Source: a virus. Taken from it: DNA of 27,360 bases. A model generated the notes under the pieces. That model made no database searches, was not told the DNA's origin, and worked only from the letters and a program-made list of their open reading frames with translations. The DNA is taken from IMG/VR virus record IMGVR_UViG_3300035698_026962, positions 1-27,360 of that record; one strand, written 5' to 3'. Positions 1 to 26,475 of the stretch are shown piece after piece (position 1 is the stretch's first letter; each line of letters begins with the position of its first letter). The translations under genes were made by a program, and so were the position numbers.

Positions 1-429
1 CTTATGCTTCATCCGTGTACCCAAGGATTTTCTTCCAAGAGTACCACTACGAATCATCTGCATGAAGTTACGAAGCATTTTCATGTTGTCGATGACTTTA
101 TCGAACACGATGTCAAACTTATCGTACCCAATACAACCAAGCCCTACAACCAAAAACGCAGGCATATCCTTCATGTACCCATGCTGACGGGCATAAACAG
201 CTACCTTTGCGATGTAGTCAGGGTCCTCGATATTACCACACACTGACAGCACCGTCTGGAGAAACTCATCAGCCGAGGCATAAAACTGGTCGTTAAACGT
301 ACCAGTCACGGCCAACTGAGCCAGAGCAGCCTCTGGTGAAAGCTGGTATGCCAAACCACCAGCCTCATTGACCATATTGGCATTCCCGAATGTGTTTGAC
401 TTAGTGCTGAACACTTGTTTATTCGCCAT
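1..429 (-). CDS. TROVE-domain (Ro60-like) RNA-binding protein, N-terminal part
   Basis: The frame starts at ATG 429 and stays open to the window edge, so 143 residues are visible and the C-terminus is missing. A stretch reading AKVAVYARQHGYMKDMPAFL, then GYDKFDIVFDKVID, then GRKSLGTRMKH fits the TROVE module of Ro60 proteins, HEAT-like helices that bind misfolded RNA and Y RNA. An RBS-like AGGAAAGG precedes the ATG and a promoter lies at 456..483. Ro60 proteins usually carry a C-terminal VWA domain; whether this one does cannot be seen. A free-standing VWA protein is encoded at 4934..5590. Ro homologues are known in some phages. Family assignment is from motif recognition only. Confidence 0.8.
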   Translation of the reverse strand, partial: MANKQVFSTKSNTFGNANMVNEAGGLAYQLSPEAALAQLAVTGTFNDQFYASADEFLQTVLSVCGNIEDPDYIAKVAVYARQHGYMKDMPAFLVVGLGCIGYDKFDIVFDKVIDNMKMLRNFMQMIRSGTLGRKSLGTRMKHK

Positions 430-4868: not shown

Positions 4869-4943
4869 TGGTAAGCGAGGGGGGACTCGAACCCCCAGTC
4901 TCCTCCTTCGGAGGGAGGCGTCCATCCATTAGACTACTCGCTC
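4869..4943 (-). tRNA. tRNA-Arg(CCG)
   Basis: Acceptor GAGCGAG/CTCGCTT, A73, CCA. Stem CCTCC/GGAGG closes loop CTCCGAA, anticodon CCG. Its anticodon stem matches that of Arg(CCT), so the two look like paralogues. The 5' ten bases overlap the VWA gene. Confidence 0.93.
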
Positions 4944-5590
4944 TTCACTACATTGCCATCTGCATCAACCGTGTCTACCTTACTCAATACATCATAAGCA
5001 GACCCACCACGACGAGCTGTACCAACGCTTTGACCAACCAAACTGTAGGCCTGTAAAACAGACTGGTCAGTTGCACAAAAATTAACAGTTCCTTGACCAC
5101 GAATGCCAAGCCCACCAGACTCAGCAAAGGCATCCTGATTTGCACCAAGGAAAAGGAATTCCCACTGGTACGTCCCCTCCTGATGCTGAATCATCTCCTT
5201 AATCTGTGCCTTGCTGTACTCGTGGCTGGCGTTCTCCTGCCCATCGGTAATGATGCAGAAGACTAGCTTCTCTGGACGCTCTGCTTCAGCCATCCTACCC
5301 AACCGCCCTCCAAGTGAGACTATCGTAGTACCCACTGCATCAAGCAAGGCCGTTGTCCCACCCGGAAGGTAAGATTTACTATCCAGCTCCCTGACAGCCT
5401 GAATATGGTCCCACTCAACCAATTTCAGAATATTAGTATCAAACAACATGATACTCATTGTGGCCTCCCCGGGCAACTGCTTCTGCTCCTTCAGGAAGGT
5501 ATTAAACCCACCAACGATATCGTCCGCTATCAAACCCATGGACCCTGACTTATCAATAACCATTGCAATATGTGTATAACCAGATTTCAT
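4934..5590 (-). CDS. VWA-domain protein with intact MIDAS
   Basis: The 218-residue protein is a single von Willebrand A domain: VIDKSGSM (D13, S15, S17), GGTTALLDA (T79/T80) and IITDGQEN (D116) form a complete metal-ion-dependent adhesion site. There is no signal peptide or membrane segment, so it should be cytoplasmic. The start follows AAAGGGGTATGAG, and a promoter lies at 5611..5638. Its TAG stop doubles as positions 8 to 10 of tRNA-Arg(CCG). Ro60 proteins combine TROVE and VWA modules, so this may partner the TROVE protein at 1..429; that is inference. Confidence 0.88.
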   Translation of the reverse strand: MKSGYTHIAMVIDKSGSMGLIADDIVGGFNTFLKEQKQLPGEATMSIMLFDTNILKLVEWDHIQAVRELDSKSYLPGGTTALLDAVGTTIVSLGGRLGRMAEAERPEKLVFCIITDGQENASHEYSKAQIKEMIQHQEGTYQWEFLFLGANQDAFAESGGLGIRGQGTVNFCATDQSVLQAYSLVGQSVGTARRGGSAYDVLSKVDTVDADGNVVKSE

Positions 5591-9560: not shown

Positions 9561-9567
9561 AATCAAA

Positions 9568-9591
9568 CCGGGGCCACAACAGTGACCCCGG
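9568..9591 (-). other. GC-rich hairpin before the first tRNA
   Basis: CCGGGGTCA pairs with TGGCCCCGG (9 bp, one T-G) around CTGTTG, followed by TTTGATT and, 7 nt on, tRNA-Gln. It resembles a weak terminator or attenuator at the end of the array leader, or a processing stem. Confidence 0.5.
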
Positions 9592-9763
9592 ACCAATAAT
9601 CATTGCATCAACCCGTTTGTCAAAGAACCGCTCGAGTCAATTACCTTGTCCAAATATTCCAGACAATATTGAAATGAGCCGCCTGCGCCTCCGCAAACTC
9701 GCACCGGACAACTGTCTGACCGGCACTAATACACTGCCGTTCATAAAGTACACTTGTACAAGC
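9592..9763 (-). other. tRNA-array leader
   Basis: About 170 nt lie between the array promoter and the hairpin at 9568..9591. A perfect palindrome CTTGTACAAG (9753..9762) covers the expected transcription start. A 35-codon frame (9637..9744, no clear binding site) contains five Arg codons in a row (CGG AGG CGC AGG CGG). No other gene is visible. Confidence 0.4.
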
Positions 9764-9791
9764 ATTATACAAGGTGGGGGTTATTCGTCAA
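9764..9791 (-). promoter_or_regulatory. Main promoter of the tRNA array
   Basis: Minus-strand TTGACG, 16 nt ending in TTG, TATAAT. It is the only strong promoter between the replication genes and tRNA-Gln. Confidence 0.85.
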
Positions 9792-9859
9792 GTTGTTTTT
9801 CAAAAAACTTACTTTACCAATACAATGCTGCTTTGAATTTGTTACACAGGGGCCAGGAT

Positions 9860-9898
9860 GGCTCCTCGCCTAAGCACATAAGTGCTAAGCGAGAAGCC
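9860..9898 (-). other. Long two-part hairpin
   Basis: GGCT, CTCGC and AGCAC pair in series with GTGCT, GCGAG and AGCC around the loop TTAT, about 14 bp with small internal loops. The sequence TTAGCACT appears twice around it. It lies in the roughly 170 nt between the last replication-block gene and the array promoter, where no gene is seen. A weak TTGACA at 9940..9945 lacks a good -10. Confidence 0.55.
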
Positions 9899-9962
9899 CT
9901 AGTGCTAACCTAAGGGCGATTCACAATAACAACTGAGCATGTCAACAAGTAAAATAAAATTT

Positions 9963-18107: not shown

Positions 18108-18908
18108 TTACTTTAGCAGAAGGACAGTATCACGCCTAGGACTGCCGTAGTAGGCCTCGTTATTTGGAAGAAGCATACACCTGTTCAACCCATTTATGTT
18201 TACAGAACCCCTGCTGACTTCCTTTATTTCAGCCAAACCCTTCCAGTTCTCACCAATAGTAAAATCCATCACCATAGGAACCTTAAGCCACTCATACTGA
18301 TTTATACTTAGATTCATAAACTTAATAATCCACTCAACCATACTGGAATCCACTTCCATTATTATACTATCATGAATCGTACTCAGGAACCGACACCTAT
18401 CCTGCCAACCCTCTCTGCGAAGCCTATACCATAGATTAGCCATTGCCTGAAGATTTATATCGCTTGCGGCTGACTGCACTGGAAAGTTAACCGCCTTGCG
18501 GAAAGCCGAGGACAGGAGAGCTTGCCCATCCATCTCTGTCTTCCAATTCTGCATTTGCTGCAGTGCCACACCAACCTCAGGAAATCTTCTCACACGCCCA
18601 AAGCTAGACCTGACTTCACGCTCTTGCATCAGTTCATCCATAACCCGGTCGTACCACGCCTGTAGCCCTGAGTAAAGCTGGAAAAACTTATTACGCCACC
18701 CATTGGCAACCTTAAAATCGACCTTAATGTCTGCATTAGTACGCAAGTAATCCATAAACCCTGCTGTGGCTTGCCCATAAAGTAGACCAAAATTAATAGA
18801 CTTGCATATCCGCCGCTGTTCCTTACTGACCTCACTCTCTGGTATACCAAAGATAACACTGGCAGTACGTGTATGAATATCCTTATCCTCATGGTAAGTC
18901 CGTATCAT
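18108..18908 (-). CDS. polA: DNA polymerase I, C-terminal part (fingers/palm)
   Basis: This 266-residue frame carries the rest of the family A polymerase: QRRICKSINFGLLYGQ is motif B (K36, F40, Y44), QSAASD is conserved, and STIHDSIIMEVD holds motif C (H179, D180). DKDIHTRTASVIFG aligns with the DIHRATAAEVFG stretch of E. coli Pol I. Its ATG overlaps the previous TGA as ATGA, so coupled translation of a split enzyme is possible, but see the -1 frameshift finding: 5 residues that belong to the fold lie in this frame upstream of the ATG. Confidence 0.9.
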   Translation of the reverse strand: MIRTYHEDKDIHTRTASVIFGIPESEVSKEQRRICKSINFGLLYGQATAGFMDYLRTNADIKVDFKVANGWRNKFFQLYSGLQAWYDRVMDELMQEREVRSSFGRVRRFPEVGVALQQMQNWKTEMDGQALLSSAFRKAVNFPVQSAASDINLQAMANLWYRLRREGWQDRCRFLSTIHDSIIMEVDSSMVEWIIKFMNLSINQYEWLKVPMVMDFTIGENWKGLAEIKEVSRGSVNINGLNRCMLLPNNEAYYGSPRRDTVLLLK

Positions 18909-20587
18909 CTCTTGGTCATTTGATACGAGGCACCAACACGAAGTTCAGCTTGTGACAGGTCACCCTGAAACAGGACCAAAGGCTTCCGTGCAATAAAAAA
19001 TTCTTTTATCGGCCCCTCCCGGGGAATATTCTGCATATTCGGATTAGCTGAGGACAACCTACCAGTACGGGTACCATGTAGGAGAAAATCGCCATGCAGA
19101 ACAGACTTGCCCAAAAACGGCTCAACAAACGTTGAATAAAGTGTGTGAACCTTACGATACTCCATTAAAATCTTTGGTGTATCATCATCCCTACCGGTTT
19201 TTTCGTTATCAGATATCAGTTCTTTTAACACACCCTTATCAATTTTATAAGACTTATCCTTATTCAATTCACCAAAATAGGGATAACCAGAGGTAACAAA
19301 AAAGTAATTTCCAACAGGGATACGTTTGTTTGGGTCACACCCCATCCTCTGGTACAGGGTCTTTCCTAACTCATCAACCTGAACACGAAGCTCATCCGCC
19401 GCCTGCTTAAGCTTACCCTCATCGAGAGCGAAACCACCATACCGCATACTGGCAAGCATGGAAATACATGGTCGTAGAACATTATTATAACATGATAATA
19501 GCCCGGCATCCCGTTGAATTTCCTCAGACAAACTATCGTGCAATTGTGCCGTGTAAAGAGCATCCTCAGCATTATAACACAAGAGCTCATGGGTAGGAAC
19601 CCGAGTAAAGTCCTTAACCAAAACCGCATATACCCCAATACGCTCCTGAACCAATGCCTTCAATGAATATCTGGCTTTGTCAACATCAAGCAGATAGTTC
19701 ATAAGCATCACATCATGTAAGTTAGACCCCCTAAGGTCTATGTTGTATGGGAAGAGGGACATAATATCAAACTGTGTATTATATGCGGATAAGCTCTCCA
19801 TCCTACACAGCCAGTTACCAACAAATTGCTGGACCTCATCAAACCACCTGAAAGAATAACTGATGTTACCATCGGACACAGCCATAGTTCGGACCTGAAA
19901 ATTATCCCCCCAAGGATTCAGACCTGTGGTTTCAACATCAAATGCACAAAAATCCCAATTAAGCTCAGTTAGGGTATCCATAACATCCTGTGCGGTGTTT
20001 AGCACAACAATGTTACGCACTTGGTTAGAACCACGAATCTCAGACTTAGCCAGCAACAACGCACGGTATATGTCCTGATAACGCCGCCTGCCCTGAGGTG
20101 AACCTATATCCCCTGTATGCAAAATACTGGCTGGATGAAAAGTCGATACAACCTTTCGACCGCCAACCTCATACATTTGGTTACGGTTTATGGCTTCAGA
20201 AGAACCTCTAAATAAGTAGTTTGTTGCAACTAACCCAAGGCATATGATTACACGAGGGTTCAGCCGCTCAATCTCCTTATCCAAATACTCACCCCCACAC
20301 CTCCGACACAAATCCATAGAAGGTGTATCATTATTCGGAGGACGACACTTAACAACATTAGTAATATGACAAGTAATACCAGATTCCCCAATCAGACGCC
20401 GAATGTGCTCGCCTGATGCCCCAACAAAAGGCCTACCCTGTTCAATCTCTGTTGCCCCTGGTGCCTCACCAATTATCATAATTTCTGCACCATCGACCTG
20501 CTCAACCATAATTTTAACAGACCCATTGAGGGGACACCCAGCACAACCGCTTACTGGGTCATTTGCAAATTTAAAATCAAAGGGCAT
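18905..20587 (-). CDS. polA: UDG-exonuclease-DNA polymerase I fusion, N-terminal part
   Basis: Residues 1 to about 185 are a family 4-type uracil-DNA glycosylase: GEAPG 40 to 44, GRPFVGASG 51 to 59, HPAS 151 to 154 and Cys 15, 18, 81 and 97 for an iron-sulphur cluster. A DnaQ-like 3'-5' exonuclease follows (DVETTG 217 to 222, SAYNTQFD, YNAEDALYT). The polymerase domain begins at about 370 and reaches motif A GDLSQAELRV (D543), then ends abruptly in ASYQMTKR. The remaining motifs are in the next frame. Starts at ATG 20587 within TAATG. Confidence 0.9.
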   Translation of the reverse strand: MPFDFKFANDPVSGCAGCPLNGSVKIMVEQVDGAEIMIIGEAPGATEIEQGRPFVGASGEHIRRLIGESGITCHITNVVKCRPPNNDTPSMDLCRRCGGEYLDKEIERLNPRVIICLGLVATNYLFRGSSEAINRNQMYEVGGRKVVSTFHPASILHTGDIGSPQGRRRYQDIYRALLLAKSEIRGSNQVRNIVVLNTAQDVMDTLTELNWDFCAFDVETTGLNPWGDNFQVRTMAVSDGNISYSFRWFDEVQQFVGNWLCRMESLSAYNTQFDIMSLFPYNIDLRGSNLHDVMLMNYLLDVDKARYSLKALVQERIGVYAVLVKDFTRVPTHELLCYNAEDALYTAQLHDSLSEEIQRDAGLLSCYNNVLRPCISMLASMRYGGFALDEGKLKQAADELRVQVDELGKTLYQRMGCDPNKRIPVGNYFFVTSGYPYFGELNKDKSYKIDKGVLKELISDNEKTGRDDDTPKILMEYRKVHTLYSTFVEPFLGKSVLHGDFLLHGTRTGRLSSANPNMQNIPREGPIKEFFIARKPLVLFQGDLSQAELRVGASYQMTKR

Positions 20588-24748: not shown

Positions 24749-25128
24749 ACTCTATCCTTACCACCACCATGAATTATCTTAGGGTTGAATCCTGGTGGCA
24801 CATGAATGTCAGGAACAAGAATCTTACTGTTTCGTTGTCTGGCTGCCTCTTCCATCATTGCACTAATTTCTTCATTAACAACTTTCTGGTCAGCATCAAT
24901 AATTTTGTCGAATTTATCAAACACATCCTTAATATCCTTTGCATCAGTCATCCTAGCCATTCTTGATATTGGCTGAGAAATTGGTGTCTTACCATCAGGT
25001 GCCAATGGCTGAAAGGAATACCTCACATAGTACTCACAATCCTCTGGGTCATCAATGTTTGTTATAATGATTGCCTCTTGCCCATCACACACAAAGGTCT
25101 CACGCTTGTAGATTACAACATTATCCAT
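24745..25128 (-). CDS. Hypothetical acidic protein (127 aa)
   Basis: ATG 25128 follows GGAGAGCAATA and overlaps the preceding stop by 8 nt. The N-terminal half is beta-rich (VVIYKRETFVCDGQEAIIIT), followed by an acidic helical region (KDIKDVFDKFDKIIDADQKV) and a Pro/Gly-rich tail (DIHVPPGFNPKIIHGGG). It may be a partner of the sigma factor with which it overlaps; no family recognised. Confidence 0.68.
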   Translation of the reverse strand: MDNVVIYKRETFVCDGQEAIIITNIDDPEDCEYYVRYSFQPLAPDGKTPISQPISRMARMTDAKDIKDVFDKFDKIIDADQKVVNEEISAMMEEAARQRNSKILVPDIHVPPGFNPKIIHGGGKDRV

Positions 25129-25387
25129 TATTGCTCTCCAATCCATAGGTTAGAACTGCAATCCTATTCTTGAGGTCCTGTATTTCCATTTGCATTTTTT
25201 TCAAACAACAGCGTTTGTATTTGAGACCAGACCCACAGGGGCAGGGTTGGTTACGACCAGTACCGGAATCCTTATAACGTGCCATATGAAGCTGGAGATT
25301 GTAGATTTCCTTGTATAGGTTTTCAACCTTCATAGATTTCTCATCACTATTGTTTGAGTCAAGGACCTCATCAATAATGTCTTTCAT
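25121..25387 (-). CDS. SEC-C motif protein (88 aa)
   Basis: ATG 25387 follows TTGGAGCTTTT. GRNQPCPCGSGLKYKRCC is a complete SEC-C zinc motif, as at the SecA C-terminus. It is flanked by predicted coiled-coil helices (VENLYKEIYNLQLHMARYKD, KKMQMEIQDLKNRIAVL), so the protein could dimerise. SEC-C motifs bind SecB, ribosomes or other proteins; here it lies alone as an adaptor-like protein in front of the sigma gene. Confidence 0.85.
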   Translation of the reverse strand: MKDIIDEVLDSNNSDEKSMKVENLYKEIYNLQLHMARYKDSGTGRNQPCPCGSGLKYKRCCLKKMQMEIQDLKNRIAVLTYGLESNNG

Positions 25388-25520
25388 AAAAGCTCCAATC
25401 AAAAAAAAATCATTTTTTGCAACCGGGGAAACTTAATCTAACTACTGATATTATAATACAGAGTTAACTAAATTTATCCAGTTACAATTATATATATATA
25501 TCTTCTCTCCCTCAGTTCGG
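25388..25520 (-). other. AT-rich upstream region of the SEC-C gene
   Basis: No gene is visible. On the minus strand it holds (AT)n near 25490, a TATTATAAT at about 25449..25457 and a T-rich run just before the binding site of the next gene. A -10-like element without a matching -35 is all that can be said of promoters. Confidence 0.4.
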
Positions 25521-26085
25521 TTTAAAAAATCGGTGTTCGGTTAAGTTCATCGGAATATGGATGCTCGAATAGACTCCGATTCTCTTTTGTACTTAACTAC
25601 AACTACAAAAGTTAAAGAACTCTTTCAAGTCCAGAAAGTTCTTCTTCATTCTTCAGTATTCTCTGAATTATGGTGATTCAGGAAGTACTGAATTCTTGAA
25701 TGAATTCTCTTTTTACATGAAATCAATTCTTCTGTTATCAGCACAGACTCATTCCCCCAGAAATTACTATAAAACAAATAATTTCTGTCTGTCTGTGCAA
25801 TCCAACAACGGATTTCACGGCTTCCTACCCATAGCATATCACGGCAAATCCGGCCTGAGGCGGGGTTGGCGGTTGTTCCTCAGGTGCTGTATTACTATGG
25901 TGCATTCCCTGCTCTTTCGAGCGACCAACGGTCCGGTTAATGCATCCGGCTCACTTCTACCTATGATTTCTCAGAACTCTTTCCCATGCAGGCTCTGGAA
26001 CACACAGGCTTCCCTTTTTTCCCTGAAGCTGGGTTTTGTCACTAAGGTGTACGGTGGGACCCGCACCCTACTCATCAGGGTGACT
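25521..26085 (-). ncRNA. Candidate large structured RNA (about 560 nt)
   Basis: No protein gene fits between the GroES-like stop and here, yet the sequence has nested perfect helices: 25741..25748 with 25791..25798 enclosing 25758..25766 with 25779..25787; 25645..25651 with 25698..25704 enclosing 25654..25658 with 25686..25690 and 25663..25668 with 25676..25681; 25809..25815 with 25846..25852; 25854..25860 with 25878..25884; 25584..25591 with 25604..25611; 25615..25621 with 25637..25643; and 25549..25554 with 25575..25580. A GCTC-GAAA-GAGC hairpin (25911..25922) gives a GNRA tetraloop only on the minus strand. A T run at 25524..25529 may mark the end. The size, phage setting and tRNA-rich genome recall the GOLLD and ROOL classes; membership is not shown. 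Confidence 0.6.
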
Positions 26086-26475
26086 TTACTTTCTCTTCAT
26101 TACTTCTTCAACCTTCTCCTTATCTACAACTGCAGCAATGTCACCATCATTACACATGAAGTACATCACCTCATTGAGAAAGAAATGTTGTAATGTGGTC
26201 ACTTGTAATAGTATCCGGTCATCTACCTTGTATGGCATTGGCAGTCTGTCTTTACCATCACGTTCACGCCCGGGCCCAACCTTTACAATACGACAGACCC
26301 TGAAATGAAATTCAGACTCTTCAGGCACATACAGCCCTGATGCAGAAATTGAGAGACTCTCATACACAAAAATGATTTTTCCACCCGTTGGTTCTACAGG
26401 TAGGTCATCACCTTTTAGTATTTTACTCACATCCTTTGGTAGATACGCTACAAAGGGGTCTTCATTCTTACCCAT
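26086..26475 (-). CDS. GroES-like co-chaperonin
   Basis: The order of motifs fits GroES: a GGKIIFVYES strand, SGLYVPEES (the mobile-loop region), VCRIVKVGPGRERDGK, MPYKVDDRILL and DGDIAAVVD at the end. Length (129 aa) is slightly above GroES and similar to T4 gp31 and related phage forms. ATG 26475 follows AATAGGAGACACACG. It probably replaces host GroES on GroEL for folding a phage protein such as the capsid subunit. Confidence 0.82.
   Translation of the reverse strand: MGKNEDPFVAYLPKDVSKILKGDDLPVEPTGGKIIFVYESLSISASGLYVPEESEFHFRVCRIVKVGPGRERDGKDRLPMPYKVDDRILLQVTTLQHFFLNEVMYFMCNDGDIAAVVDKEKVEEVMKRK

Follow-up and report, generated by a model that had tools for sequence, protein, structure and literature searches.

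A credible candidate for a large structured noncoding RNA in a tRNA-rich phage genome

Introduction

GOLLD and ROOL are large structured phage RNAs that form RNA cages, and we know of no function for these cages. Could a phage with many tRNA genes carry a large RNA of yet another origin? ROOL RNAs are about 520-660 nt long, noncoding and branched in their fold, and occur in phages or prophages with tRNA arrays (PMC12286853, PMC5643018). The ROOL RNA assembles into an octameric cage with conserved kissing loops (PMC12286853). GOLLD is likewise a large noncoding RNA of phages with tRNA arrays (PMC12286853), and OLE, an RNA of bacteria, is also large (about 600 nt) and structured (PMC9723947).

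Here, we describe a segment at positions 25521-26085 of an IMG/VR virus record, which is in our view a credible candidate, though not a proven one, for a new large RNA of phages. It shares with ROOL the branched fold, the lack of a protein gene, the setting in a phage with a tRNA array and the length (565 nt against 574 positions of the ROOL model). ROOL often lies near a tRNA island; the contig of the candidate carries 29 tRNAs and a tmRNA, but the nearest tRNA (9560) is about 16 kb away, and the candidate is thus not beside the array. It is shorter than most GOLLD RNAs, many of which exceed 800 nt.

The locus and its coding potential

The window, that is, the whole stretch of 27,360 nucleotides that was analysed, comprises one entire IMG/VR virus record of 27.4 kb and is a piece of a phage genome; the genes lie on the minus strand, among them RecA-like, gp32-like and family A polymerase genes (Pfam). 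The 29 tRNAs and the tmRNA (RF00023, 1754-2092, minus strand) are located between 1488 and 9560. The Cpn10/GroES gene (26086-26475, minus strand; PF00166, 1.8e-9) ends directly upstream of the candidate RNA, and a SEC-C motif gene (25121-25387, minus strand; PF02810, 3.8e-10) follows about 140 bp downstream. The gap between the two genes, 698 bp, is the longest intergenic gap in the window, the runner-up being 402 bp, and the segment interrupts no gene.

The segment is noncoding. Its longest minus-strand ORF encodes 63 aa (25646-25837), lacks a Shine-Dalgarno sequence and has a codon score of -0.07, against a mean of 0.20 +/- 0.10 for the genes, while a plus-strand ORF of 165 aa scores -0.23, as for a wrong frame. 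Stops are numerous in the minus frames, and neither the 63-aa product nor two other open pieces matched Pfam or PHROG. A protein gene in 25521-26085 was therefore rejected on the codon scores, the stops, the missing Shine-Dalgarno sequence and the lack of a Pfam or PHROG match. An earlier note on this DNA, which had seen no credible protein over about 560 nt between a GroES-like and a SEC-C gene, is borne out by these results and by the Pfam assignment of both flanks.

Promoter and terminator scans found no minus-strand promoter above chance at the candidate RNA and called no minus-strand terminator there. A promoter-like TGGATA-16-TATTAT (25480-25453) lies between the candidate and the SEC-C gene, at a frequency that equals the chance level. 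The segment might be a cis-acting intercistronic RNA, composed of the cpn10 3' untranslated region and the leader or spacer of the SEC-C gene, which would stabilise, terminate or process the mRNA without any separate RNA. The absence of a called promoter of its own fits this explanation, as do the start of the segment at most a few bases from the cpn10 stop codon, the common direction of all genes and the presence of several independent hairpins. However, intercistronic regions of this genome are far shorter than 560 nt as a rule, the SEC-C gene is preceded by the separate promoter-like site, albeit one at chance frequency, and the branched 5' domain described below exceeds simple hairpins. 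We consider a purely cis-acting role rather unlikely.

Folding of the segment

The folding energy was compared with that of shuffled sequences and expressed as z in three independent runs of 60, 60 and 100 shuffles. On the minus strand, the z of 25521-26085 was -6.39, -5.56 and -5.15, and no shuffled sequence folded as well; with the plus strand alongside, the minus/plus values were -6.4/-2.8, -5.6/-3.5 and -5.2/-3.2. The centroid energy was -174 kcal/mol for the minus strand versus -102 kcal/mol for the plus strand. Among 46 tiles of the same size (565 nt) across the window, the candidate was the best; the only tile close to it in z (-4.8) overlaps it, and the next independent one (-3.6) is a tRNA tile. 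The phage's own tmRNA (-3.2 minus, -0.8 plus) and a cluster of five tRNAs (-3.3 and -2.1) gave weaker signals than the candidate, and four coding stretches had minus-strand z between +0.9 and -1.7. Excess folding on the strand of the genes beyond that expected from composition, a general mark of a structured noncoding RNA, is thus present in the segment. However, a genuine ROOL RNA, used as a yardstick, scored only -1.8 (plus strand +0.1), which shows that z is a loose guide to biology: the signal is strong, yet known large RNAs need not have a high rank by this measure, and the folding of a single sequence is weak proof of function.

On the minus strand, 21 runs of at least 3 pairs have pair probabilities above 0.5, the longest of 16 bp and several of them nested, which agrees with the at least nine helices of 5 to 9 bp, several nested, that had been reported from the letters. 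The candidate RNA would have its 5' end near 26085 and its 3' end near a U-run at 25529-25534, and the segment divides into two parts.

The 5' domain (25737-26085, minus strand), about two thirds of the segment, is branched and G+C-rich (0.47-0.59 at its centre in the GC profile). It includes two stacked helices of 7 bp and 11 bp (25959-26009, pair probabilities 0.98-0.99), and the hairpin GCUC-GAAA-GAGC (25911-25922, 0.99), whose GNRA tetraloop confirms the GAAA loop noted earlier on the minus strand only. A long arm (25826-25904, 0.88-0.99) consists of 11 bp, 6 bp and the 7 bp CCUGAGG/CCUCAGG closed by the 17-nt loop AACAACCGCCAACCCCG, and an 11-bp hairpin is formed by CAGAAAUUAUU and AGUAAUUUCUG (25758-25787, 0.99). 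The z of the domain is -3.8 on the minus and -1.8 on the plus strand, and when G-U pairs are forbidden the minus value drops to -1.95 and the excess is lost. The 5' domain is thus strand-specific and dependent on G-U pairs, which is a mark of selection on an RNA read from one strand. Compared with shuffles, the arm at 25826-25936 by itself is not unusual; therefore, the 5' signal comes from the whole domain and from 25755-25826, a stretch with z of about -3.1 on the minus and -4.0 on the plus strand.

The 3' part (25521-25736, minus strand), about a third of the segment, is A+T-rich and contains long imperfect hairpins, with 16 bp at 25652-25692 and 11 bp at 25584-25611. Its z is -3.9 on the minus and -2.8 on the plus strand, and about equal (-3.7 and -3.6) without G-U pairs. 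Since these hairpins are nearly strand-neutral, they are weaker evidence for an RNA, and inverted repeats in the DNA would give the same result. Near the 3' end, AAUCGG...CCGAUU followed by the U-run (25529-25582, minus strand) encloses a loop of about 40 nt and is the longest loop-loop complement; it may be a weak terminator, which the terminator scan did not call.

Could the fold then be only a by-product of a DNA-level element, such as inverted repeats that serve replication, packaging or recombination, or of a decayed spacer or mobile-element relic? The 3' hairpins, equally stable on both strands, are what such an element would show, and a very A+T-rich tract (GC 0.23-0.28) with TATATATATATA at 25400-25550 adjoins the candidate, its positions 25400-25520 lying between the RNA and the SEC-C gene. 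This explanation is nevertheless improbable in our judgement, given that the 5' domain is strand-specific and G-U dependent, that the GC skew does not switch in its vicinity, that Pfam and PHROG reveal no protein relic and that blastn in phages and plasmids gives no match to any element.

Comparison with known RNA families

The earlier note had proposed GOLLD or ROOL as possible identities and a scan of Rfam, naming the GOLLD, ROOL, group I/II intron and HEARO models. With all 4227 Rfam models, E up to 10 and permissive filters, cmscan returned only chance hairpin matches; OLE, HEARO, group I/II introns and RNase P were all absent from the matches at E<=10. The sub-threshold matches on the plus strand (plastid 3'UTR and miRNA families) were rejected as simple hairpins matching hairpin models. 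The ROOL model (RF03087), searched singly, did not match the candidate at E<=10 either. As a positive control, the same model recovered the ROOL RNA of L. salivarius pMP118 (NC_007930, 178263-178805) at 130 bits, in the region where the lncRNA of L. salivarius has been placed (PMC5643018), and the candidate has no sequence similarity to this RNA. The GOLLD model (RF02032), which covers the conserved 3' region, gave no match at E<=10 when searched singly, with a calibration that consists only of weak sub-threshold signals in 5 controls. The candidate resembles OLE in being a large structured RNA of similar size but does not match the OLE model. It likewise matches no tmRNA model and lies away from the phage tmRNA, itself a structured RNA tied to translation.

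ROOL, GOLLD and the other Rfam families were therefore rejected as identities on the silence of the covariance models. A very divergent ROOL or GOLLD missed by the models would explain the length, the branched fold and the large tRNA array in the phage, but we regard it as very improbable, given that neither cmscan with its permissive filters (E up to 10) nor either model searched singly gave a match, and that the candidate is not similar to the ROOL RNA that served as the strong control. What stands of the earlier proposal is a large, noncoding segment with strong and strand-preferential folding, while the membership in GOLLD or ROOL is not supported.

Search for relatives

Homologous phages, which the earlier note had also wished to see collected, were sought in several ways. 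The candidate has no homologue by blastn in phages and plasmids, and IMG/VR scans with the cpn10, SEC-C, helicase, PolA and TROVE proteins reached none; these protein scans used short exact peptides, by which relatives below an estimated 70-80% identity or so are missed. Three RNA sequence patterns matched only chance 16-mers in IMG/VR, and one genome scan by PolA found no homologue. A DNA search of 796 genomes from two phyla gave one weak match, located within an RtcB-like gene in antisense orientation. No relative was found with a covariance model that was built from this single sequence for its 145-nt core, and Myxococcus phage Mx1 has no match to the candidate. In the collections searched, which may omit the records closest to the window, no homologue of the candidate RNA was thus found.

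Proposed interpretation

To the explanation that the minus strand of the segment is read into a large structured phage RNA of no known class, stable and acting through its fold like GOLLD and ROOL but of separate origin, we assign about even chances. An RNA of about 550-565 nt would be made with the cpn10 transcript or just after it, starting at or just past the cpn10 stop codon and ending near the U-run at about 25530, with the branched G+C-rich 5' domain followed by the row of A+T-rich hairpins at the 3' end. It would be transcribed as a discrete RNA and, by analogy with ROOL and GOLLD (PMC12286853, PMC5643018), would most likely accumulate as a stable RNA in infection. It may act in trans through its fold as a scaffold, a ribonucleoprotein or an RNA-only particle, as proposed for GOLLD and ROOL. 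The stability, abundance, trans action and oligomerisation of the candidate RNA are suggested by analogy, which is not evidence. This explanation is favoured by the best z of the 46 tiles, the preference for the minus strand, the longest gap in a dense genome and the lack of a coding signal, and we also count in its favour an RNA-rich phage with 29 tRNAs, a tmRNA and a Ro60/TROVE relative. Against it stand the lack of a homologue, the strand-neutral 3' third and the absence of a promoter above chance and of a called terminator.

More tentatively, and with prospects clearly below even, the RNA might found a class of its own among the large ornate phage RNAs, sharing no descent with GOLLD and ROOL; its phage also has a near-complete tRNA set, a tmRNA and a Ro60-like protein. 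If so, large phage RNAs would have arisen independently for a third time in tRNA-rich phages. The presence in such a phage of an RNA that matches them in size but is unrelated would show that these phages have repeatedly acquired big RNAs, and would link the question to the genes for translation and RNA quality (tmRNA, Ro60/TROVE) that the contig also carries.

Other features of the phage genome

A second structured gap of 402 nt (9561-9962, minus strand) lies directly upstream of the tRNA array, with a z of -4.7 to -4.9 on the minus and -2.95 on the plus strand. At E<=10, Rfam yields nothing for it except a chance miRNA match, and its sequence is not similar to the candidate RNA.

The family A DNA polymerase is encoded by two ORFs (18905-20587 and 18108-18908) that differ in frame and overlap in an ATGA at 18905-18908, whereas its relatives continue in one frame at the split site according to the tblastn coordinates. 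The gene may be truly split or subject to recoding, or the assembly may be in error here.

None of the collections includes a near relative of the phage; its best shared genes, TROVE and VWA, are shared with Mx1. The Ro60/TROVE-like protein (1-429, minus strand), an N-terminal part truncated by the contig end, shares 56% identity with the TROVE-domain protein annotated in Mx1, and the VWA protein (4934-5590, minus strand) has 37% identity with its Mx1 counterpart. Mx1 has the same combination of TROVE, VWA, tRNA array and tmRNA. Its tmRNA (OR576727.2, 1732-2109, 117.7 bits) is located in the tRNA array, is unannotated in the record and overlaps a small CDS annotated as a 'Hef-like endonuclease'.
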